The translations under genes and the position numbers were made by a program. This document shows positions 11,462 through 29,647 of a stretch of DNA of 51,016 bases, in pieces. Each line of letters begins with the position of its first letter. Position 1 is the stretch's first letter. The stretch spans positions 1 to 51,016 of the forward strand of contig CANFLZ010000014.1 in assembly GCA_947448135.1 (NCBI GenBank). The letters are read 5' to 3'. The notes beneath the pieces are model-generated. The model was not told the DNA's origin and searched no databases. It saw nothing but the letters and a program-made list of their open reading frames with translations. This DNA comes from Flavobacteriales bacterium (GTDB lineage Bacteria; Bacteroidota; Bacteroidia; Flavobacteriales_D; Sanyastnellaceae).

Positions 11462-13437
11462 ACGAGTTAAAAGACCACGCCAATCTTTACCTCCGACAAC
11501 ACGGCAGTAATCCCATTTTTTGGAAGGCTTGGTCTGAAACTATTTGGCACAAAGCACAACTAGAAAACAAACTTGTCATTGTCAGTATTGGCTACAGTGC
11601 TTGTCATTGGTGCCATGTCATGGAAAAAGAATGCTTTGAAGATTCGGAAGTAGCTGCTCTCTCCAATGCCCATTACATCAGCATCAAGGTTGATCGTGAA
11701 GAGCGTCCAGACATTGATCAGAGTTTTATGAACGCCATTCAATTGATGGGTAAACCAGGAGGTTGGCCATTGAATTGCATTTGTCTCCCCAATGGCGTTC
11801 CAATTTTTGGCGGGACTTATTTCCCAAAAGGAAGGTGGATAAAAATCTTGGAAGAGATTCATCGTTTGCATCAAACTGAGCCTGACACTTTGAATGGATA
11901 TGGTCAAGAAATTGAAAAAGCCATTCATGATTGGGATCATCGAGATGGAAGCGCTGCGCTTTCGTTGCAGATTGATCATGACACCATTCAAAGTTGGATA
12001 GCTGACCAAGACATGGAAAACGGCGGCACCCAAGGCGCTCCAAAATTTCCCATGCCTCCCCTTTTGAACTCCATGATCCTGTATGGCACATCGTATCCAA
12101 TTGCAAGGAATTGGGCTTTGCACACCTTACAAAAAATGAAAGAAGGTGGCATTTATGACAATGTGCATGGCGGCTTTTGTCGATACTCAGTAGACAGTGA
12201 ATGGCACATTCCGCATTTTGAAAAAATGCTCTATGATAACGCCCAACTCCTAGGAAATTATACCTTGGCAGCCCTCTTTGAAAATCGTGTCGAATACAGA
12301 CAGTCCATTGCGGGCATCGACCACTGGATCAGCCAATACATGATATCAGAAGACGGTCTCATTTATTCGGCGCAAGATGCAGATACCGACGGAGAGGAAG
12401 GTAAATTCTATTGTTACAACATAGCTGAAATCCAAGCCGCCGCAGGTGAGCAATTTCATTCGTTGCAAAATTTGTATGACTTTGAAAAATTTAGTCATTG
12501 GGAGCATGATCGGATTGTTTTCAGACAAAAAATTAGTTTAACAGAATGGGCTTTGGAATTGGAGAAAAATATCGATGATGCCATTGTCATTCAAAAAGAA
12601 TTTTTCAAAAATTTACAGTCTATTGCCGCTACAAGAAACCGTCCACAGATAGACACCAAAATATTGACCAGTTGGAATGCCCTGGCAGTAAGCGGTTGGA
12701 CGATGGCTTCCTACATTGAAGAAGAATATTTGTCCAAGGCGCAAAATCTATTTTCCAAAATGAAATTGCATTTAAAGTCAAATCATGTATGGAGGCAAGG
12801 CAAATATTCGTCCGATTTTTTACCGGTATTGTTGTCTGATACCTTGGCGCATGTTCAGCATGCCGCCTTGCAGTTGTTAATGCGGACTGGAGAAGATCAG
12901 TATTTTCATGAAATCGAACATTGCGCAGTCGCTTTAGAAGAATATTGGGATGAAAATGACCACCTTTATTTTCTGGGTCATTCGAAAGATGTTTTTGTTC
13001 AGAAGAAAGAAATTACCGACAGCGTCACTCCTTCAGTGAATGCCCAAATTTGCCAAAACCTGTTCGTACTCGGCATCTTGAGTGGAAAACAAAAATATGT
13101 TCAGAGAAGTGAACAGATGATGACCCGTGTGCAGGAGTTTGGACAGCAACCAGCGTATAGTGCACAATGGTTACAGCAATGGCTTTACCGAGAACACGGT
13201 GGAATCATCATTGCCCAAAATGCCGACACAACAGAAATTCAAACCATCCGAAGCTGGGGAATTTTTGTTTTCGAAATAAAAGGACAAACGACCATTCCTG
13301 CATTTCAAGGTAAAGACCATGCACAAAAGCAATTTCATCTTTGTACCTTCGCTTCATGCTCAACTGGATTTTCCGATTTGCTTTCACTGGAACAGTACTT
13401 CTTATCCTTGAAGTCCCTGTCTGCCGCGGGCAAATGA
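11458..13437 (+). CDS. Thioredoxin-domain protein of the YyaL/DUF255 (SPATA20-like) family
   Basis: 659 aa. The N-terminal DUF255 thioredoxin fold carries the signature [13 protein letters not shown] with C49 and C52, followed by [12 protein letters not shown] and [11 protein letters not shown]. The C-terminal two thirds look like an (alpha/alpha)6 barrel ([43 protein letters not shown]). No signal peptide, so cytoplasmic. Biochemical role is not established for this family; a redox or sugar-related activity has been suggested by fold alone. Its last 82 bases are overlapped by the next gene in another frame. Confidence 0.9.
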
Positions 13438-14252
13438 TCAACAATAAAGATGGTAAAGCTTTTGAAAGTCCCATTACTTTCAATCGCAGTTTTATCTGGG
13501 AAAATAAAATTTTATTAATTGAAGAAAACGTCTTGGTCAAAATGCCCGGACGCCCTATCGATGATCTGCAACAAGACATTCACTACTATTTCGGAAATAC
13601 TGGAATTTTAGAAAAAAAAGAAACGATTGCCCCGCGGAATTGGGTGCAGGATACCACTTCGATTTTGTATAGAAGAAATGATATCGGTCAATTGTTTTCC
13701 ATTGAATCCAAGAATATTCAAGAAACCACCATTGTGCAAAATGCGTACGACAGCAATGGTAAAATCATTCGTCAAGACACCAAACAAATCATCCCATCAA
13801 GCAACCATGAGAATCGAGAAATCTTGGTGGAATCGAATTCGTATGAATATCAATTTCCGCATCCCCATATTGTTGTTAGAAACAACATCAACAATTACGG
13901 TCTCACATACAGTGCCTTTACTACAGAAAGGAATGAACAAGGTTTCTTGATCAAAGAAAAAGAAGAGTATTTTATTTCACAACGCATCATTGAGGCCATC
14001 TATCAATACAATGAAAAAGGTTGGGTAAGCGCAGTTGTCCGCACGGATAGTCAAAACCAAGAAGTAGAAAAGACGACATATGACTACGACGCCAAGGGCA
14101 ATGTGCTGTTTGCCAAAAAGTTCATCAACAATCAACCTGTTGAAGAATATGAGGTGTTGTATCAAAATGCCTCGCTGGTGAAAGCTATATTGCATCAAGA
14201 CTTGAGCAGTCAAGTTATTACCATTCACAAATACGAATATCGATTTCGATGA
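13356..14252 (+). CDS. Hypothetical secreted protein with RHS/YD-like short repeats
   Basis: Not recognised as a named family. From ATG 13356 it encodes about 298 aa beginning with a signal peptide ([19 protein letters not shown], cleavage likely at CRGQ). The body has recurring 'Y-x-Y-[DN]-x-x-G' units (NAYDSNGKIIRQ, YQYNEKGWVSAVV, TYDYDAKGNVLFAKKF), resembling YD/RHS-type beta repeats in secreted proteins. The 13356 start overlaps the preceding gene by 82 bp; the alternative ATG at 13434 gives the usual ATGA junction but would remove the signal peptide, so I prefer 13356. A TTG at 13341 is a less likely start. It overlaps the next gene by four bases. Confidence 0.65.
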   Translation: MLNWIFRFAFTGTVLLILEVPVCRGQMINNKDGKAFESPITFNRSFIWENKILLIEENVLVKMPGRPIDDLQQDIHYYFGNTGILEKKETIAPRNWVQDTTSILYRRNDIGQLFSIESKNIQETTIVQNAYDSNGKIIRQDTKQIIPSSNHENREILVESNSYEYQFPHPHIVVRNNINNYGLTYSAFTTERNEQGFLIKEKEEYFISQRIIEAIYQYNEKGWVSAVVRTDSQNQEVEKTTYDYDAKGNVLFAKKFINNQPVEEYEVLYQNASLVKAILHQDLSSQVITIHKYEYRFR

Positions 14253-14539
14253 AAAAATTATTTTTGATTGTTGCTTTTTTTTCACTTGGTTTTTTAACCC
14301 ACGAATTGCATGCACAAAACAAACCACCGAAGCAAACCGATGTGGTTACACCAGCAGATGGTGCGAATAAGCAAAAAGAGAACCGAAGAAGAAAAGAAGA
14401 AGAATACCAGATGAAGCGTGAAAAGCATGAGGCCATTCAAGACAAGGCTACGCGCAAACGCATGAAAGAAAGTCGAAAAAAATCGAACAAAACAGGCAAT
14501 GCCAATCGCCTGCCTTGGTATAAAAAAATATTTTGGTAA
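14249..14539 (+). CDS. Small basic secreted hypothetical protein
   Basis: 96 aa. A signal peptide (KKLFLIVAFFSLGFLTHELH, cleavage after HAQ) is followed by a short Pro/Thr linker and a highly charged Lys/Arg/Glu helix-prone segment (about residues 45-85) that ends in LPWYKKIFW. No family is recognised. The charged stretch could bind nucleic acid, peptidoglycan or an anionic polymer, but nothing proves it. The ATG overlaps the previous stop (ATGA), and the next gene starts 10 bp downstream, so it is part of the same operon. Confidence 0.7.
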   Translation: MKKLFLIVAFFSLGFLTHELHAQNKPPKQTDVVTPADGANKQKENRRRKEEEYQMKREKHEAIQDKATRKRMKESRKKSNKTGNANRLPWYKKIFW

Positions 14540-14549
14540 AACAAATCAC

Positions 14550-16112
14550 ATGAAAATGAAAAAACTGTTTTTATTGTTTGCGTTGGTCTCGTTACAACGC
14601 ACAGTAGTTGCTCAAAATTGGAGTCAAGACGTTGCGCCTATTTTGTATGACCATTGCACGAAATGTCATCATCCAGGGGGAATTGGACCTTCTAGTTACA
14701 TGACCTACAACGATGCCTACAACAACAGCGCATCGATTCTTAGCGCTATTACAACTGGCTACATGCCTCCCTACCCTGCCAACACCAACTACAGACATTT
14801 CATGGATGAAAATGTTCTCACCGACACAGAGAAACAGTCCATTCAAAACTGGGTAAGTGGCGGATCTGTCAGTGGTGATTTGTCACTAGCTCCGACAGCC
14901 CCCGTATATGACAATACCAGTGCTTTAAATCACGTCGATTTTTCTGGCACCACACCATTGAATACCAGTTTGGCTTCGACTCACGATTACTACAGAACTT
15001 TTGTACTCAGTCCGAATTACACCGTCGATCAGTTTTTAGAAGGAATTGAAATCCTACCCGGCAACAGCAATATTGTTCACCACGTTGTCATTTATTACGA
15101 CCCCACCGACGATTGTTTGGCATTGGATGGAGCAGATGGCCTTCCTGGTTTTACAACAAATGGGACGGGCGGAGGAATTCCTACCAATGCCTATTTTGTA
15201 GGAGCCTGGGCACCAGGAGGTGGTCCTATGTTTTTACCAAATGGTTTCGGTATCCGCGCTACAGCTGGAGGTCACTTTTTGGTAGAAATGCATTATCCAT
15301 CCGGATCCAATGGACAGCAAGATCAAACCGTCATCAACATACAACACAGTCAGGATCCTACTCCAAGAGAAGCTTGGTACAATCCCATCATTACACATGA
15401 TCCGGCCACGTTAGATGAGCCAGCATTGATTATTCCAGCCAACACTGTTAAAACATTTCATGCCACCTACAATGTCCCAACCAATGTTTCACTGATTGGG
15501 ATATTTCCACACATGCATTTGATCGGTAGAAGTATTTCCAGTTTTGATGTTGCTGCCAGTGATACCATTCCGTTGATTGACATTCCGCAATGGGATTTTA
15601 GATGGCAATTGGGCTATGCTTATCCTCAATTGATTAAACTTCCAGCCGCTTCCCAAATAAAAGCAGTTGCTACATATGACAATACCACCAACAATCCATT
15701 TCAGCCCAACAATCCTCCGCAATTGGTGACTTGGGGAGAACAGACAACCGATGAAATGATGGTCATTTTTTATCTGTACTCCTACTACGTGAATGGTGAT
15801 GAGAACATCGTTGTCCAGCACAACACTGCCAACGAAGTAGAGAACATTGCGCCTTCGGATACTTGGAATTTTTATCCTAATCCAAGCAATGGTGAATTGC
15901 ATTGGTCCAGCTTTGTATCACGATTTGGTGCGCAAAAAATTCAGCTTTTTGATCTGACCGGAAAACTCATTTTCGAGCAAAAGCTCCTGGTGAATGGCGG
16001 GGTTGATTTTGGAACACTTCACTTATCTCATTTGCCAAAAGGGATGTATGAAGTGGTGGTCAACAATATCGATCAACAGTCTGTATTTCAAACGCGCATC
16101 GTATTGGAGTAA
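14550..16112 (+). CDS. Cytochrome c-like/PHM-type copper monooxygenase with type IX sorting domain
   Basis: About 520 aa. After the signal peptide (cleaved near VVAQ), one heme c motif C36-x-x-C39-H40 lies in the DVAPILYDHCTKCHHPGG region. A copper type II, ascorbate-dependent monooxygenase-like module follows, with candidates for all ligands of peptidylglycine hydroxylating monooxygenase: H177-H178 (IVHHVVIYY), H248 (HFLVEMHY), H321 and H323 (FPHMHLIG), and M403/M404 (TTDEMMVIF). The C-terminus, from WNFYPNPSNGE to the end, is a type IX type A sorting domain, so the protein is probably exported by the SprA translocon and surface-bound or released. Substrate unknown. I start at ATG 14550 rather than further upstream because the signal peptide begins there. 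Confidence 0.85.
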   Translation: MKMKKLFLLFALVSLQRTVVAQNWSQDVAPILYDHCTKCHHPGGIGPSSYMTYNDAYNNSASILSAITTGYMPPYPANTNYRHFMDENVLTDTEKQSIQNWVSGGSVSGDLSLAPTAPVYDNTSALNHVDFSGTTPLNTSLASTHDYYRTFVLSPNYTVDQFLEGIEILPGNSNIVHHVVIYYDPTDDCLALDGADGLPGFTTNGTGGGIPTNAYFVGAWAPGGGPMFLPNGFGIRATAGGHFLVEMHYPSGSNGQQDQTVINIQHSQDPTPREAWYNPIITHDPATLDEPALIIPANTVKTFHATYNVPTNVSLIGIFPHMHLIGRSISSFDVAASDTIPLIDIPQWDFRWQLGYAYPQLIKLPAASQIKAVATYDNTTNNPFQPNNPPQLVTWGEQTTDEMMVIFYLYSYYVNGDENIVVQHNTANEVENIAPSDTWNFYPNPSNGELHWSSFVSRFGAQKIQLFDLTGKLIFEQKLLVNGGVDFGTLHLSHLPKGMYEVVVNNIDQQSVFQTRIVLE

Positions 16113-22255: not shown

Positions 22256-25200
22256 TTATCCGTTCAATGTAAATCGAATCGCAATACCCGTATTCATGTT
22301 GGTATTGTTGAATGAGTTGGAAATCTTGGGATGGTTGAATTGATAATCGTAGAAGAAACGAATGGTCAATTTATCGCTCACGGCCATGTCTGCACTTGTC
22401 TTTAAACTCCACAACGTTTGTCCTGCCGTAATCTGATTTTGCTTCTCAGTAATTTTTCGGATCATCGTAACGTTATCGCGCATGGTCAGATCTGCTCTTA
22501 AATTGATGGTTGTACTCTTGGCCAATTTCAATGGGAACTTTTGTCCTTTGATTTTAGCCAACGGATTGGGGATGTCGGTAAACTTATACCCTGTTCCTAT
22601 AACAAAGCTATTACTTCTATTTTCCGTCACTTGGTTATTGCTCAACCCCAAGGCTATCGTTCTATCGCGTTTCATCTCCACTTTGAATTGTGGGTCATTG
22701 CTCTTTTTGGTTTTGATCGTCATATCAAATCCAATCAACGGAGACATGGATTCCGTGATAGTAATGGTATTGATTTGTTGCTTTGGAATCCAGTTGGGCA
22801 CTTCGTTAGCATCCAATGCGGTTGGACGGCCTGATGCATCTGCGGCGTAGTTCAGGTTGGTCACATAACTGGCGTTCAGTGTTGAGCGATATTGGTGATT
22901 GACCGTGAATTGCTTGAAGTATTTTTTGACACTTTCTAGTTTCGTCAATCCATCATAGCTCACTTTCCAGTTTGGCTGAGACATTGTTTTAAAAGGATTC
23001 AATGCCACCTCTTGCGCCGATTTACCCGTGTATGCCGCAATGAAAGCCGGAATCACAACCTCTTGGGCTGTTCCACCATACCCTTGGTAGTATCCGGTTG
23101 GTTCTGCGTTGGTCAAATGATAATTGGCTTCATTCAAACGAGCAGAAATGATTTGTCTATTTGCCAACAAAGCCGCAAAGGTTTCCGACATGTTTCCATT
23201 GCTCTTGTCATCGCGTTTAAATGCTGTCGACCAAGTATTGACTGAGGCGCTGAAGTTTCCTGTTTCCAAAGGCGATTGGAATTGGTATTCCATCGAATCT
23301 GGGTTGAATCGGAAGAAGCTGGCCAAATTTCGACCATCTTGTCTGTTGGCAGATAATTCAATTTTCAAATACTTGATTGGCTCCAAAGATGCCTTAGCAC
23401 TCCAGTTGGTCGAAGCGGTTTCGGTGTATTGATTGTTGAGATAGGGCGATGAAACCAAAAATCCTCCCTTGGCCATTTCCATTGCAAAATTGCGATCCGT
23501 CAATTGGCCTTGCCAATCTGTATTTTGTTGTCCAAACGCAAAGCCCAATCCGGGAGCATTAAATTGTCCATTCTGTCCAAGCATGCCTGCCTTTTGATTG
23601 TATCCGGGCAACATCATTCCTTCGGTCTTGGCGTAAGTTAGATTGGCGTTACGCACCATCATCAAGAATCGCAATGACACATCCACCCAATTGATCTTCT
23701 CTTTCTTTTCTTTCTTCTCTAAATCTTTTCCAAATCCATCTTTATTATCTGGATTGTTGGCATCCTTTCCTTTGTCCTTCTTATCATCCTTCTTGCCTTG
23801 ATTGACCTCCTTCAATCTGGGAACCTTGTTGTACAGCGTCTCAAAATTGGCGGTGGCGTTCCAGTTCAAATTCCTCGAATTTTGAATACGGTGGCCCAAA
23901 GTATCTTGCGTAAACGGCGCTCTATCCCATCGGAAACTAGAGCTATATTTTACATCGGAACTAACAAAATCGATCAATGGGAATTTGTCCAAAGGCAGTT
24001 TGTAGGTGGCATTGAATTGATGATTGTACACTGTACTTTCTCCCATCTTCATGATGTTGCGGGTGACAGTATCCTTGTACGCGGTGTACCAATCTTGGTT
24101 GTCTTTTTGGATAACTCCGCGTGGCTCAACAATCAAAGCGGTGTTGGCAGCGGCAAAATCCAATTTGATACTCTTGGTTAAATCGTATTTGACATTGTAA
24201 TTGCGGTTCCAACTCCAGTTCTTTTGTGCCTGGGTTTGAATCAACATATCACTGTACTGACCCGTCAGTTCCAAAGTATTGTTTCGAATCCTACTGGTCT
24301 CGTAGGTTCTGTTCATGTCGGTATGGAATGCCACTTGCTTGATACCGGGATAGAAATTAAATTCCTTTACCCATTTCAAATACGGAGAAGATTTGACGAC
24401 GGGAATTTTTGCAAACGGCTTGATCTCTTTTGGCTTGTTATTGAAAGAATAATCAAATGCACCCGTGTATTGCTTATTCAGACGGAAATCGATATTGATA
24501 TCGCGGAAATAAATTTCGTTGTAGGCATAGCTGACCGAAAAATTATCGATCGCATAAAACTTGGGTGTATCAGACTGCCCGCCCGATGTGGGTGAGGCTG
24601 CTGGCGTTGTCGGTCGACCCGCAGCGGCAGGATCGGCTCCTTCTTCACCTCCCGTCTTCTTGGGAACAATCTTTAAATTGGTAACGTTGATACTTCGACG
24701 CCGTGTAACCGTCTGTGACTTCTTTTTCAGCGGCTTTGATAAAGTGGGCAATTCTGCCAATTCCAAATCCGGCTGTAACGGGCTGTAACGCGGTGTGGAA
24801 ACATTCTCGGAATATCCCATATACAAAGGCATTTGCACGCCCCAATTCTCTGGGAAGAATTTTCCCATTTGAATGGTGGTACTGGCATCAATTCCCGTTT
24901 TGGTCTCTTGCTGACGTTGCTGCACTTTTTGTTCTACAGAACCCCAACCGGGTGTACTCATGTTTCCAGCAACATTCACGGTAGCCAAATCAGCCACTTG
25001 TGCTGTCATCCGACCCAAGGCAGCCCATCCGGAGGTATTGTCAAAATCAGAAAGTCGCAATTCGTTCACCCAAACCACGGCGCACTTGGCTTTGGCGTCA
25101 TCTTGAGAAGTAAATGTGTTCTTTTTATCATCTGGATTTCGAACACCAATCATCAACACCGTCACATTGGATACGTTGGGATTTCCTTTAACCGATATAC

Positions 25201-28200
25201 GCACATTTTCAGAGAGCATCTTGGAATACTCTTGCATCGCTGAAAATCCAACAGGCCTTGTTGCCTTGAGCTCTTGCAAATCTTTGATGACGATGTCGAA
25301 ATTATTTTTCTCTGGCCATATTTCGTTATCGTCGTTGGTGTACCAAGGCGTAACGGACATGGGCATTTCATATTCATAATAGTTCTGATCAAAGTCTGAT
25401 CCCAAACGAACAAACACGGTCAAGTCTTTGTCTTTTAATGCATTTTCTGTTCCCTTCGCTTCAATGTGCGCATACATACGCAAGCGCTTGTACTGGCGCA
25501 TATCAAAGGACACATTGCGATACGCTGCTTTGGCATCACCATCATTTAAATTACAAACGGACATTGCCAAACTCTGTTCGTTCATACTGCGCAAATTGGC
25601 TGAGGCAACGTCTTGTTCACGGATGATTCCAGGAGGAACAGTGTAAGGCACGGGCTCACGATTTCCGTTTTCTTCGATGTTCACCGCTGCAATGTCAAAT
25701 TGGGTCGGCTCATCGTCATTGGGCTCTACTTCTTGTGGTCCTAAAAGACTACTGTCAAATTTTCTCCACTCTCCGCGCACCAATTCCAATCGAGCAAAGC
25801 GAAGGGTGACAGGCTCCTTCCATCCTTTCAAAAACATTCTGATATAGCGGATCGAACGAAAGTCTGGGATGTTTCCGATACGGGATTCAAATTCCTTGAT
25901 GGGCACTTTGAATTGATACCAACGGATGTTGCGCTCCTCGCCGTTGGCGGTAGTTTTTGTCGTTACAAAACTATCGGTGATGTAATTGCTACCGATGTTG
26001 TTCTCACCCAAATCACCCGGGCGCATGCTGACGCGATATTGGAAATAACTTTCAATTTGATTTAAAGTAATGTCTTGGTTGATGTCTTCCGTATTGGGCA
26101 CAGTAGAAGCCGTTATCGGATAACCTTCAGGGCTAGAAGTATTGGAGTTTCCTTCATAACCGTTGAATTTTTTGTATCGTTCTATGGTGTTTAAGTTGGC
26201 TTGGTCGTTGGCCGAGCTGCGGAAATAATTGTAATCATCCGCTGAGGGATCCTGCACAATTTTCACATACGATTCAGGTGTAACATAGTTCTGAACTGAT
26301 GCCAACCATTGCGAGAAAAACGTTTGTTCTTGTGAAGAGTTCAAACCATCCAACCCGATGTCTTGTTGCTCGTAAGTTCCACTGGTGTTATCAAAAGCAT
26401 TGACCACATTAAAGGTGGAAGGATTGGGGAAAATACCCCAGTTGCCCGTTAATGTGGGCAATGGATTGTTGTCCGTTGGAAATCCATTTTCAAAAGAAAG
26501 ATGTGAGTCGTTCAAGACATCCTCAGAGACGTTCCCCAAGTTGAAATACAAGTCACCTCCATTGATGTTTTCAGAATCTTCATTGAAAGGATCCATGACC
26601 CAGAATTGGATAAATTGAACATTGCTCAACTCAAAGTCAGTCGTGGTCAATGCCCTTTGAATACCTCCCCATCTTGTTTCGGGTTCATTCAACAAACCAT
26701 CGGTTGCCAAACCAGAAGAATAACCAGGTGCTCCAGCGGGTGGATCATAATTGTATGGGCCCCGTTCCTCTGGATAATACGTCAAATCCAATGTGGCGAT
26801 ATTGGGAGGGGTTCCAGGGGGTAGCTGTCGGTTGGGGAAAACTTCCGCCTCTAATACCTCCCGCATGCGGTGATCACTCTGCATTTCAGCGTCGACATTG
26901 GGAGGGGTTAAAGCATTTTTCCGATAGAACAATGGATCGATAATATACCAACTCAAACGCGCTCTGTTGTAGTTGTAAATCAAACTATCTTCAATATTTC
27001 CTTCAGGGAATAGGGATTGCTGCATTTTAGGAGTGCTCGCCAAAAACCATTGGTTGATGGTCCGCAAGTCAATGATGCTTTGACTTCCCTCAAAATCATC
27101 GATGTAAGAATTACCAATTTTTGAAATCGCCTTGCTGTGACCTGGGAACATTTTCGCCGCCTCCCCACTGAAGGAAATTGTCGACTTGGCTTTGGTTTTC
27201 ACAAAGGGCAATCGGTCTACCATCTCGGTGAGGAAAGGAACCTCTTCTTGGTAGTTCACATCAGCACCCACTACCCAGTTGTTCACTGGCTCGTCTCCCA
27301 TGTTTACTTTTTGGGTGAGGGGACGTTCACGCAGATTCATAAACGTGGATCCCACCGAGAGTTTGTCGCTAAACTTATAATCGAACCGGCTACCCATCAT
27401 GGTCTTGAACTGCATGTTGAAAAGCGAGTTGCTCTCCACCGACACCTTGATCGGGTTGCCGCTGTTCATCACACCTTCATTGATGATTTTGACGCGACCC
27501 AAATTGTAATCCACCGTAAAATCTTGACCCTCGACCAATTTGATGCTTCCAGAAGTCACAGAAACCGATCCCTGCGGAATGTTCATGGCATTCAAAGAAA
27601 TTTCAGAACCGGAAGCGGATTGATATTGTCCTTTAATTCTAAATCGATTCAGTTGAGGAAAATTAATTTGCGCCGCTGTTTTTGTCGAATCGTACAACGG
27701 CTGAAAGACCACTTGACTGATCATTTGTTGGGCCTGTGTGGTAAGACCACCAAATCCATCGATAATTTCATTGGCCAAATGTTGTCCGAATGGCTGAATG
27801 TGTGGGAAGAATATCCTTCCCGTTTGTGCATCAATCAAACCCCCTTGCGTAGAGGCATTGGGCACAAAGTCAAAGAAGGCATCGGGATAAGGCATCTGCT
27901 GGTTATCGATCCTATCGAGATCCAAAACTTGTAACAACAATCGACCAGAAAGAGGATCACGTTGGATGCTGTTCATGTTCACACCCGTTGCCGGATTGTT
28001 GTACCAAACATCCAAACGGAAATTTTCTGGAGAAACACCAAAAGCGCCTAAGTTGTAGACGTTCTTCATCATGTTTTGCCACAAAGGAGCTGGCGATCCA
28101 TCGGTCAATTTAACCATGGTAATCGAGGCTTTTAGCATTTTTAAAACCAGGGCTTGTGGCGCCGCAATTCCGTCTTGTGACAAAGTTCCAACTTGATACG

Positions 28201-29647
28201 TTTGACCATTCAAAGTATACTCAAACGAAACGCCCAAAACCTCCGCGTTGTTCAGCGCTTGCTTCAACGAGATAAATCCCAACTTGGAATTGTAGGTGAA
28301 TTCTGATGCATTTAATTTTCGGGCATTCCCCACTCTTTCGTAGTGAATCCCTTGGCGCATGTTCAATCCCAACGCTTGGATGGCAGGATTGGCATTGGTA
28401 AAATTCAAAATCTCTTGATTACCCATCATGGTAGCATACAAGTCGTTGTTGTCATTGTCTGGATTAACCGGTTGGGGCAAGTTGACCAAACCTTGATAGG
28501 AATAATCCGTTGACATATAATTCTGTGATTCTCCCAAATCGGAAAAGGCCAAAATATTTCTTACATCTTGTGTGTTGGCCTGCTGATTGACCACCCACAC
28601 TTCGATACGGGTGATATTGGCGCCACTGTTTACAACAGGCAGCGTCGACATCGCCTTATCATAGTTATCACGGAAATAACCCGACAAAAAGTAGTGACGA
28701 TTGGCTTCGTAGTTATCGACTGGAATATCAAACTGCGTTGTCTGCGCACCACCTTGCACAGTAATCTCCTTGCGTTCTCCCTTTTGTTGCGATAGGACTG
28801 TGGTGTTTTTTAGTTTCCCCCACTGCGTTTCTACTTTGGCACCGAACAAGCTCGAACTTCCTTGGATCAATGATCCCGACAATGGCATTTGAACCGTACC
28901 CAATTCAATTTTCTTGATGATCTGGTCCTCATCACCGGTGTAAGCCAATTTCATTTGGTTCTCAAAATCAAATTGGCTCTCCGTGTTGTAATTGAAGTTA
29001 AACTTCATGCGGGTTCCAACATTCCCGGTGACATTCAATTGGATTTTTTGGTCGAAATCGAAAGTGGTGACACGACGCTGTCTGACCGGAATACGTGGGT
29101 TTTCTACGTTGGACATTTTCAATCCAAAAGTCAATTCAGCACTTCCCTGAGGACGGAACTCAATCTCGTTGGAACCGAAAATATTTTCAAATGCTTTTGA
29201 GTCAATTTTGAAAGTCGGAGCAAATTCACGCTTGGCTTCGTCCTCTTGCTTCACCAATTCTTTCCAATAAGCAGTGACATTATCGCGCATTTGAAATTGC
29301 ATGAACTCCTCACGGGTCATCTGGGTTGAATTTCTGAAATCGATGCGATCACCTATTTTTTGTGACACTTCGTACATGCCCGTTTCCGGATTGTACTCAA
29401 TATGGTACTTGATATTTTTGGGCAGCGGAACCGCAATCCCAGAATTTTGTGGTGACGGATTAATGGGGTCTGAATTGGGCCAGATGGGAGTAACAGTGGT
29501 ATCCGCCTGGGCTTCGATGGATTTGGAAGAACGAATGATGTAGACAGGAGAACTCATCGTCGTGATGGACCATGCCCACCATGACGAGAGCAAACTAATG
29601 CCCACAATCGCTACCCATTGTATGATATGCCTCGGCTTAACCTTCAC
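22256..29647 (-). CDS. sprA: Type IX secretion translocon, cell-surface protein SprA
   Basis: 2463 aa. SprA (Sov in Porphyromonas) is the huge outer-membrane barrel forming the export channel of the type IX system, which moves cargo with C-terminal sorting domains to the surface and supports gliding in motile relatives. Visible are an N-terminal signal/TM segment (residues 10-30), SprA-N-like sequences (FRPQGSAELTFGLKMSN; DIPVDNYEANRHYFLSGYF), DDFEGSQSIIDLR in the middle, WVNELRLSDFD further on, and long beta-rich barrel blocks with lysine-rich linkers (near 23700-23800). It starts with GTG at 29647, directly against the ruvA stop, so it is co-transcribed with ruvA. Its cargo plausibly includes the 14550-16112 protein. 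Confidence 0.95.
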   Translation of the reverse strand: MKVKPRHIIQWVAIVGISLLSSWWAWSITTMSSPVYIIRSSKSIEAQADTTVTPIWPNSDPINPSPQNSGIAVPLPKNIKYHIEYNPETGMYEVSQKIGDRIDFRNSTQMTREEFMQFQMRDNVTAYWKELVKQEDEAKREFAPTFKIDSKAFENIFGSNEIEFRPQGSAELTFGLKMSNVENPRIPVRQRRVTTFDFDQKIQLNVTGNVGTRMKFNFNYNTESQFDFENQMKLAYTGDEDQIIKKIELGTVQMPLSGSLIQGSSSLFGAKVETQWGKLKNTTVLSQQKGERKEITVQGGAQTTQFDIPVDNYEANRHYFLSGYFRDNYDKAMSTLPVVNSGANITRIEVWVVNQQANTQDVRNILAFSDLGESQNYMSTDYSYQGLVNLPQPVNPDNDNNDLYATMMGNQEILNFTNANPAIQALGLNMRQGIHYERVGNARKLNASEFTYNSKLGFISLKQALNNAEVLGVSFEYTLNGQTYQVGTLSQDGIAAPQALVLKMLKASITMVKLTDGSPAPLWQNMMKNVYNLGAFGVSPENFRLDVWYNNPATGVNMNSIQRDPLSGRLLLQVLDLDRIDNQQMPYPDAFFDFVPNASTQGGLIDAQTGRIFFPHIQPFGQHLANEIIDGFGGLTTQAQQMISQVVFQPLYDSTKTAAQINFPQLNRFRIKGQYQSASGSEISLNAMNIPQGSVSVTSGSIKLVEGQDFTVDYNLGRVKIINEGVMNSGNPIKVSVESNSLFNMQFKTMMGSRFDYKFSDKLSVGSTFMNLRERPLTQKVNMGDEPVNNWVVGADVNYQEEVPFLTEMVDRLPFVKTKAKSTISFSGEAAKMFPGHSKAISKIGNSYIDDFEGSQSIIDLRTINQWFLASTPKMQQSLFPEGNIEDSLIYNYNRARLSWYIIDPLFYRKNALTPPNVDAEMQSDHRMREVLEAEVFPNRQLPPGTPPNIATLDLTYYPEERGPYNYDPPAGAPGYSSGLATDGLLNEPETRWGGIQRALTTTDFELSNVQFIQFWVMDPFNEDSENINGGDLYFNLGNVSEDVLNDSHLSFENGFPTDNNPLPTLTGNWGIFPNPSTFNVVNAFDNTSGTYEQQDIGLDGLNSSQEQTFFSQWLASVQNYVTPESYVKIVQDPSADDYNYFRSSANDQANLNTIERYKKFNGYEGNSNTSSPEGYPITASTVPNTEDINQDITLNQIESYFQYRVSMRPGDLGENNIGSNYITDSFVTTKTTANGEERNIRWYQFKVPIKEFESRIGNIPDFRSIRYIRMFLKGWKEPVTLRFARLELVRGEWRKFDSSLLGPQEVEPNDDEPTQFDIAAVNIEENGNREPVPYTVPPGIIREQDVASANLRSMNEQSLAMSVCNLNDGDAKAAYRNVSFDMRQYKRLRMYAHIEAKGTENALKDKDLTVFVRLGSDFDQNYYEYEMPMSVTPWYTNDDNEIWPEKNNFDIVIKDLQELKATRPVGFSAMQEYSKMLSENVRISVKGNPNVSNVTVLMIGVRNPDDKKNTFTSQDDAKAKCAVVWVNELRLSDFDNTSGWAALGRMTAQVADLATVNVAGNMSTPGWGSVEQKVQQRQQETKTGIDASTTIQMGKFFPENWGVQMPLYMGYSENVSTPRYSPLQPDLELAELPTLSKPLKKKSQTVTRRRSINVTNLKIVPKKTGGEEGADPAAAGRPTTPAASPTSGGQSDTPKFYAIDNFSVSYAYNEIYFRDINIDFRLNKQYTGAFDYSFNNKPKEIKPFAKIPVVKSSPYLKWVKEFNFYPGIKQVAFHTDMNRTYETSRIRNNTLELTGQYSDMLIQTQAQKNWSWNRNYNVKYDLTKSIKLDFAAANTALIVEPRGVIQKDNQDWYTAYKDTVTRNIMKMGESTVYNHQFNATYKLPLDKFPLIDFVSSDVKYSSSFRWDRAPFTQDTLGHRIQNSRNLNWNATANFETLYNKVPRLKEVNQGKKDDKKDKGKDANNPDNKDGFGKDLEKKEKKEKINWVDVSLRFLMMVRNANLTYAKTEGMMLPGYNQKAGMLGQNGQFNAPGLGFAFGQQNTDWQGQLTDRNFAMEMAKGGFLVSSPYLNNQYTETASTNWSAKASLEPIKYLKIELSANRQDGRNLASFFRFNPDSMEYQFQSPLETGNFSASVNTWSTAFKRDDKSNGNMSETFAALLANRQIISARLNEANYHLTNAEPTGYYQGYGGTAQEVVIPAFIAAYTGKSAQEVALNPFKTMSQPNWKVSYDGLTKLESVKKYFKQFTVNHQYRSTLNASYVTNLNYAADASGRPTALDANEVPNWIPKQQINTITITESMSPLIGFDMTIKTKKSNDPQFKVEMKRDRTIALGLSNNQVTENRSNSFVIGTGYKFTDIPNPLAKIKGQKFPLKLAKSTTINLRADLTMRDNVTMIRKITEKQNQITAGQTLWSLKTSADMAVSDKLTIRFFYDYQFNHPKISNSFNNTNMNTGIAIRFTLNG

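Follow-up and report, generated by a model that had tools for sequence, protein, structure and literature searches.

The bacterial heme-copper protein reported here is real and conserved. It is encoded by a single gene of the window, that is, the whole stretch of DNA that was analysed (51,016 nucleotides from a Flavobacteriales bacterium; GenBank assembly GCA_947448135.1, contig CANFLZ010000014.1), and in it a mono-heme cytochrome c domain, a dicopper module of the PHM/DBH type and a type IX sorting tail follow one another. All ten presumed metal ligands (C36, C39, H40 and M72 of the heme; H177, H178, H248, H321, H323 and M403 of the coppers) are invariant in 56/56 rows of an alignment of the window protein with 55 homologs, whose identity to it goes down to 25%. 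In animals, PHM and DBH serve the synthesis of hormones and transmitters, and both require ascorbate, from which they draw their electrons; DBH is the one that makes noradrenaline. The most likely reading of the window protein is an exported monooxygenase of this type II dicopper group that carries its own mono-heme cytochrome c, the heme presumably standing in for ascorbate.

Protein architecture and export

The gene lies in an ORF extending from 14499 to 16112, in which an in-frame ATG at 14550 directly precedes the signal peptide. Its features, together with two other genes of the window, are as follows:

14249..14539, + strand: protein of 96 aa with a hydrophobic N-terminus followed by a highly charged part, possibly co-transcribed (ORF list)
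14550..16112, + strand: complete gene for an exported protein of 520 aa, made up of cytochrome c, PHM/DBH-type dicopper module and type IX sorting tail
14550..14615, + strand: Sec-type signal peptide, residues 1-22 (called by eye from the sequence)
14616..14879, + strand: mono-heme cytochrome c domain, approximately residues 23-110 (invariant residues; weak c-type cytochrome matches)
14655..14669, + strand: heme attachment motif CTKCH, residues 36-40 (sequence; C36, C39 and H40 invariant)
14763..14765, + strand: M72 of the MPP motif, probable distal heme ligand as judged from its invariance
14919..15821, + strand: PHM/DBH-type dicopper module, approximately residues 124-424 (Pfam and profile matches)
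15078..15083, + strand: H177-H178, two presumed CuH ligands (rat PHM H107, H108; register with PHM/DBH, invariant)
15291..15293, + strand: H248, third presumed CuH ligand (rat PHM H172; register with PHM/DBH, invariant)
15510..15518, + strand: H321-M322-H323, with two presumed CuM His ligands (register with PHM/DBH, invariant)
15756..15758, + strand: M403, candidate CuM Met ligand (invariant; within the Cu2_monoox_C match, residues 311-414)
15873..16100, + strand: type A sorting domain of type IX secretion at the C-terminus, residues 442-517 (scores exceed the Pfam and NCBIfam cut-offs)
22256..29647, - strand: SprA of the type IX system (SprA_N, E 1.7e-177)

The architecture given in the preliminary description, namely a heme c motif, a PHM-like copper module and a type IX tail in one chain, is confirmed by the CTKCH and MPP motifs, by weak copper-domain matches in the right order and by a sorting domain above the cut-offs. 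The latter is recognised both by Pfam (Por_Secre_tail, residues 442-517, 36.4 bits, cut-off 27) and by NCBIfam (TIGR04183, residues 442-512, 31.1 bits, cut-off 23). SprA acts at the outer membrane, and the 2.5 Mb genome of the window holds 85 sorting-domain matches, that of the heme-copper protein included; the two marks of type IX cargo, a sorting domain on the protein and a translocon in its genome, are both present. Neither an Rfam family nor a tRNA was found when the window was scanned for them. AlphaFold2, supplied with six input sequences, returned two predictions with a mean pLDDT of 40.4 and 36.9.

Among the 56 aligned rows, 45 carry a C-terminal extension, 39 match Por_Secre_tail and 11 have no extension. 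On the tree, the distribution of the tail-less rows needs one label change, with one group weakly supported (70/0); ten of these rows form one clade (98/93), and the eleventh is a separate long branch. Since the tail-less members retain the heme and copper ligands, either one branch gained the export tail or the other lost it. The type IX tail of the earlier proposal therefore stands for the window protein itself and falls as an essential part of the family.

Conservation of the presumed metal ligands

The first search found five loci in named MAGs, whose proteins are 61-68% identical to the window protein, and the heme-copper profile built from these loci and the window matched 25/395 genomes of the phylum and 129/199 genomes of the window's own order, both samples including the window's own genome. 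Both halves and all ten ligands were present in 62/64 loci (L014-L077), some of which duplicate each other; the remaining two, L036 and L047, are halves that lie at contig edges of a single genome. The 56 rows of the alignment are these 62 loci minus seven, plus the window: L015, L018, L019 and L048 were dropped because they duplicate L049, L050, the window and L043, respectively, L063 because its ends equal those of L061, L076 for masked letters and L077 because it is cut by a contig edge. The homologs are the best-scoring loci of each search, so the alignment, with its 28 invariant columns, favours well-matching members; in 16 more distant loci, motifs of the same kinds are found.

The heme ligands are as invariant as the copper ligands. 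In three homolog pairs dN/dS was 0.02-0.03 (0.011/0.34, 0.035/1.24 and 0.039/1.62), so these pairs are under strong purifying selection; in two codon comparisons that included the window itself, synonymous sites were saturated. Chance occurrence of the motifs is ruled out by the invariance of the ligands over the 56 rows together with these dN/dS values. F350, W352, Q353, D377, N378 and N382 are among the invariant residues that are not ligands, and the positions F-x-W-Q and D-N...N...P to which such residues belong are candidates for a family-specific pocket.

Searches of viral contigs found no relative of the heme-copper protein, and searches of plasmids gave no match to the core of the window protein or to one tail-less homolog. 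With a redoxin-fused homolog as query, nine plasmid records were retrieved, eight through the redoxin part and one, actinobacterial, through the copper part. One record titled as a Chryseobacterium gleum MAG (L015) encodes a protein 63% identical to that of the window; its gene order matches that of MAGs titled Flavobacteriales bacterium, and the title is probably wrong.

Relationship with the animal copper monooxygenases

Taken as a single sequence, the window protein matches PHM barely (E 0.5), and its matches to the two Pfam families of the module, Cu2_monooxygen (20.4 bits, cut-off 30, E 6.2e-4) followed by Cu2_monoox_C (16.8 bits, cut-off 23, E 4.9e-3), stand in the expected domain order and below the cut-offs. 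A copper-module profile built from the 56 rows, when compared with the PDB, had as its twelve best matches one DBH and eleven PHM sequences, with E 9.6e-10 for DBH (human, 4zel) and E 7.7e-7 to 2.8e-5 for PHM. Positions 18-257 of the 301 profile positions align with DBH and 8-253 with PHM. Judged by sequence score, the module is thus closer to DBH than to PHM, and of the label "PHM-like" in the preliminary description, the dicopper module is retained and PHM as nearest relative is given up.

In the printed profile alignments, H177/H178 fall on PHM H107/H108, H248 falls on H172, and the HMH of the bacterial family falls on the HTH of PHM, which we take to be H242 and H244 of the rat enzyme. Five of the six copper ligands (HH, H and HxH) are accordingly in register with both DBH and PHM. 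The profile alignment to the solved chains ends before the Met, and for M403, whose counterpart is presumably rat PHM M314, a C-terminal profile gave chance matches only and the single sequence gave none. M403 is proposed as the sixth ligand from its invariance, its position inside the Cu2_monoox_C match and the DEM motif that PHM carries. All six ligands remain the candidates proposed at the outset, each of them without exception in the alignment.

The likeness to DBH also includes the stretches around the motifs WDFxWQ and YDNT of the bacterial family, which align with it. The part of DBH that aligns, however, is without a heme domain, whereas in the bacterial protein a cytochrome c is fused to the module and an export tail is present. 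PHM and DBH contain disulfides, and Cys occurs only three times in the window protein (at 36, 39 and 189), once outside the heme motif, so disulfides like those of PHM/DBH are impossible in it. The bacterial family shares with PHM (rat, 1opm and others) the module and the copper ligands, but differs from it in two peptide-contact positions, treated below. A further difference is that the PHM-bearing protein requires ascorbate (PMC6123673).

Cytochrome domain and its link with the dicopper module

The residues C36, C39, H40, M72, P73, P74, L90, W101 and G109 are invariant in the cytochrome domain over the 56 rows. The heme-domain profile gave weak but consistent matches to c-type cytochromes, the best being hydrazine synthase alpha (E 0.0015), and it also matched CcoP, c6 and a few unrelated chains. 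With these mono-heme cytochromes the domain shares the CxxCH start, and with the cytochrome domain of hydrazine synthase alpha also the end motif LTxxE..I..W..G; it differs from them in being joined to a dicopper module, and the matches themselves are weak. M72, as an invariant candidate for the second ligand, would fit an electron carrier rather than a peroxidase. Two Cytochrom_C_asm matches were found in the genome of the window.

In order to avoid a biased count of the heme-copper fusion, the phylum sample was searched again with the copper module only. The module was found in 39/395 genomes at 44 places (28 close and 16 distant), and a heme motif (CX2-4CH) lies upstream at 43/44 of them, as CX2CH in 33, CX3CH in 3 and CX4CH in 7. 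The sole place without a motif is a half gene at a contig edge in G023, and a heme half stands at the edge of a different contig of the same genome. A check of the ligand pattern was passed at 41/44 places; of the three that missed it, L045 and L046 have all ligands in the profile alignment, and L159 has HS in place of HY at the third His, the His itself being kept. As for the wider motifs, CX3CH or CX4CH replaces CX2CH in 10/16 distant loci (L149, L150, L153-L158, L161 and L163). A tally of how often CxxCH and the PHM module occur together had been suggested as a check, and its outcome is favourable, partly through the wider forms of the motif. Because the heme ligands are as invariant as those of copper and a heme motif is found at nearly every place, a functional link between the heme and the copper centre is supported at the level of sequence.

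A PHM-like ORF of Nonomuraea gerenzanensis (L169:2365-3693) shows the dicopper-module motifs HH, VHY, HMH and DEM and differs in that, by eye, neither a CX2-4CH motif nor a sorting tail is seen in it. From this heme-less actinobacterial relative it follows that the fold does not require the heme and that the fusion is a feature of the present branch.

Neighbouring genes

Neighbours were compared at 40 loci (39 genomes) picked by hand from the match lists of the phylum and the order, with wider flanks. A gene of the AhpC/TSA-Redoxin type directly adjoins the heme-copper gene at 14/40 loci and is fused N-terminally to it at one more; 3 of the 14 adjacent redoxins were family-scanned. The count of 15/40 is possibly too low, since five loci are cut by contig ends (L080, L084, L090, L096 and L110). 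By their family labels, the 14 loci span eight families. A CPxC motif is common in the fourteen redoxins, its first Cys being invariant and the second nearly so, and a C-terminal GCxI is invariant. No adjacent redoxin was found in the window, in the 16 distant loci (with shorter flanks) or at 25/40 loci. We propose that the redoxin assists in loading copper, in reducing thiols before heme attachment or in supplying electrons. The oxygenase had been imagined as "self-contained", which is doubtful given an adjacent or fused redoxin at 15 of 40 homologous loci.

Several other arrangements were observed. In the window's own genome, the best redoxin match ends in the motif SVGCKI and lies immediately next to a multicopper oxidase that carries a type IX tail (L165:3007-5327; genome G000, contig C44), so that another copper enzyme destined for export has a partner of a similar sort. 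At L108:4708-9505 and L110:6015-9507, the heme-copper gene is present in tandem copies with a redoxin gene in between. At L091:343-10754, L092 and L094, tail-less homologs and a redoxin stand beside pairs of large secreted proteins that by eye are SusC/SusD-like, with an FG-GAP/ASPIC-UnbV repeat protein nearby in the scan of L091 only; this neighbourhood is possibly an uptake locus.

Upstream of the heme-copper gene, the 96-aa protein occurs at 9/46 loci, in nearest relatives only and with two duplicates among them, and has no convincing family in Pfam or NCBIfam. The gene before it (13341-14252, + strand, with a TTG start as listed) has a weak RHS/YD-repeat match and is likewise confined to the nearest relatives. 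L098 and L099 share contigs with L015 and L018, so two of the 46 loci are duplicates; the neighbour families listed (up to 30) are those found in at least three loci. A conserved operon was considered and rejected, as the two upstream genes and RuvC recur in 8, 9 and 9 of the 46 loci, in nearest relatives only.

Proposed mechanism and alternative readings

For an exported heme-copper monooxygenase, the following course may be proposed. In the periplasm, the heme would be attached and copper loaded into the protein, which the type IX system would then move through the outer membrane to the surface. There a putative external or outer-membrane donor would reduce the heme, and the heme would hand electrons singly to CuH and onward to CuM, where O2 would be activated and a C-H bond of an extracellular substrate hydroxylated; the substrate is probably not a glycine-extended peptide. 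We infer the loading of the heme and its route, the loading of copper, the electron transfer, the oxygenase chemistry, the surface location and the substrate. A heme c fixed ahead of the dicopper module is most simply read as the point of electron entry, and the heme as a substitute for ascorbate, as first suggested for this protein, is plausible. It may also be proposed, as a less likely reading, that these proteins form a previously unrecognised class of ascorbate-free dicopper monooxygenases of Bacteroidota, in which a thiol redoxin, heme c and CuH/CuM would make one relay, and to which the type IX tail of the window's lineage would add surface attack on extracellular substrates.

Peptide amidation, which had been offered as a possible function, was judged by the residues that contact the peptide in PHM. 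Residues 240, 316 and 318 of PHM presumably hold the peptide carboxylate. The position of Arg240, which precedes the first HxH His by two residues, was placed through the profile alignment to PHM and holds Arg in 0/56 rows; that of Asn316, placed by counting from the Met, holds Asn in 1/56. At the position of Tyr318 there is Tyr in 26/56 rows, and at that of Gln170 there is Gln in 25/56; in the window protein, the positions of 240, 316, 318 and 170 are occupied by Phe, Val, Phe and Glu. Gln170 is part of the water network that binds the peptide (PMC6123673). Amidation is disfavoured by the loss of Arg240 and Asn316, on which it was rejected as the main function. A true peptidylglycine hydroxylase, which would amidate glycine-extended secreted peptides and use the heme merely as an extra electron source, is thus very improbable: it would account for the shared module and copper ligands and for the Tyr and Gln kept in about half of the rows, but not for the two lost contacts or the residues of the window protein, and no partner lyase was recognised in the scanned part of the neighbours.

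The same loss of presumed substrate contacts, the equal conservation of heme and copper and the thiol redoxin adjacent or fused at more than a third of the loci would also suit a redox protein with heme and copper but no oxygenase activity, in which the PHM/DBH-type site would reduce or oxidise a small molecule or metal (e.g., NO, nitrite, peroxide or Cu) and the heme would bring or remove the electrons. This reading is unlikely, since every presumed ligand of the PHM/DBH dicopper site is kept and no such pathway was recognised by eye among the recurrent neighbours, the smaller part of which was scanned. A surface protein that handles or senses copper without catalysis is less likely still; the multicopper oxidase beside the best redoxin match of the genome hints at a copper theme, but the invariant residues other than ligands (F350, W352, Q353, D377, N378, N382 and others) suggest that the frame of an active site has been kept.

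Implications

Most of the family escapes the curated Cu2_monooxygen profile, which reached its cut-off in 1/296 genomes and E 0.001 in 6/296, against 39/395 genomes for the copper-module profile of the family. Among the matches listed in open-licence literature, where most subscription papers are absent, no title named a bacterial heme-copper fusion. The redoxin gene beside the heme-copper gene is a new observation of this analysis, and as a recurrent neighbour it opens a new approach to how copper is loaded or electrons are supplied. A bacterial branch with a cytochrome of its own would reveal an alternative way of feeding electrons to the copper pair, and it provides a direct test case for the electron route to CuH. 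PHM and DBH depend on ascorbate, and the recurrence of the heme-copper protein in related bacteria suggests a way in which enzymes of this kind could operate in them without vitamin C.
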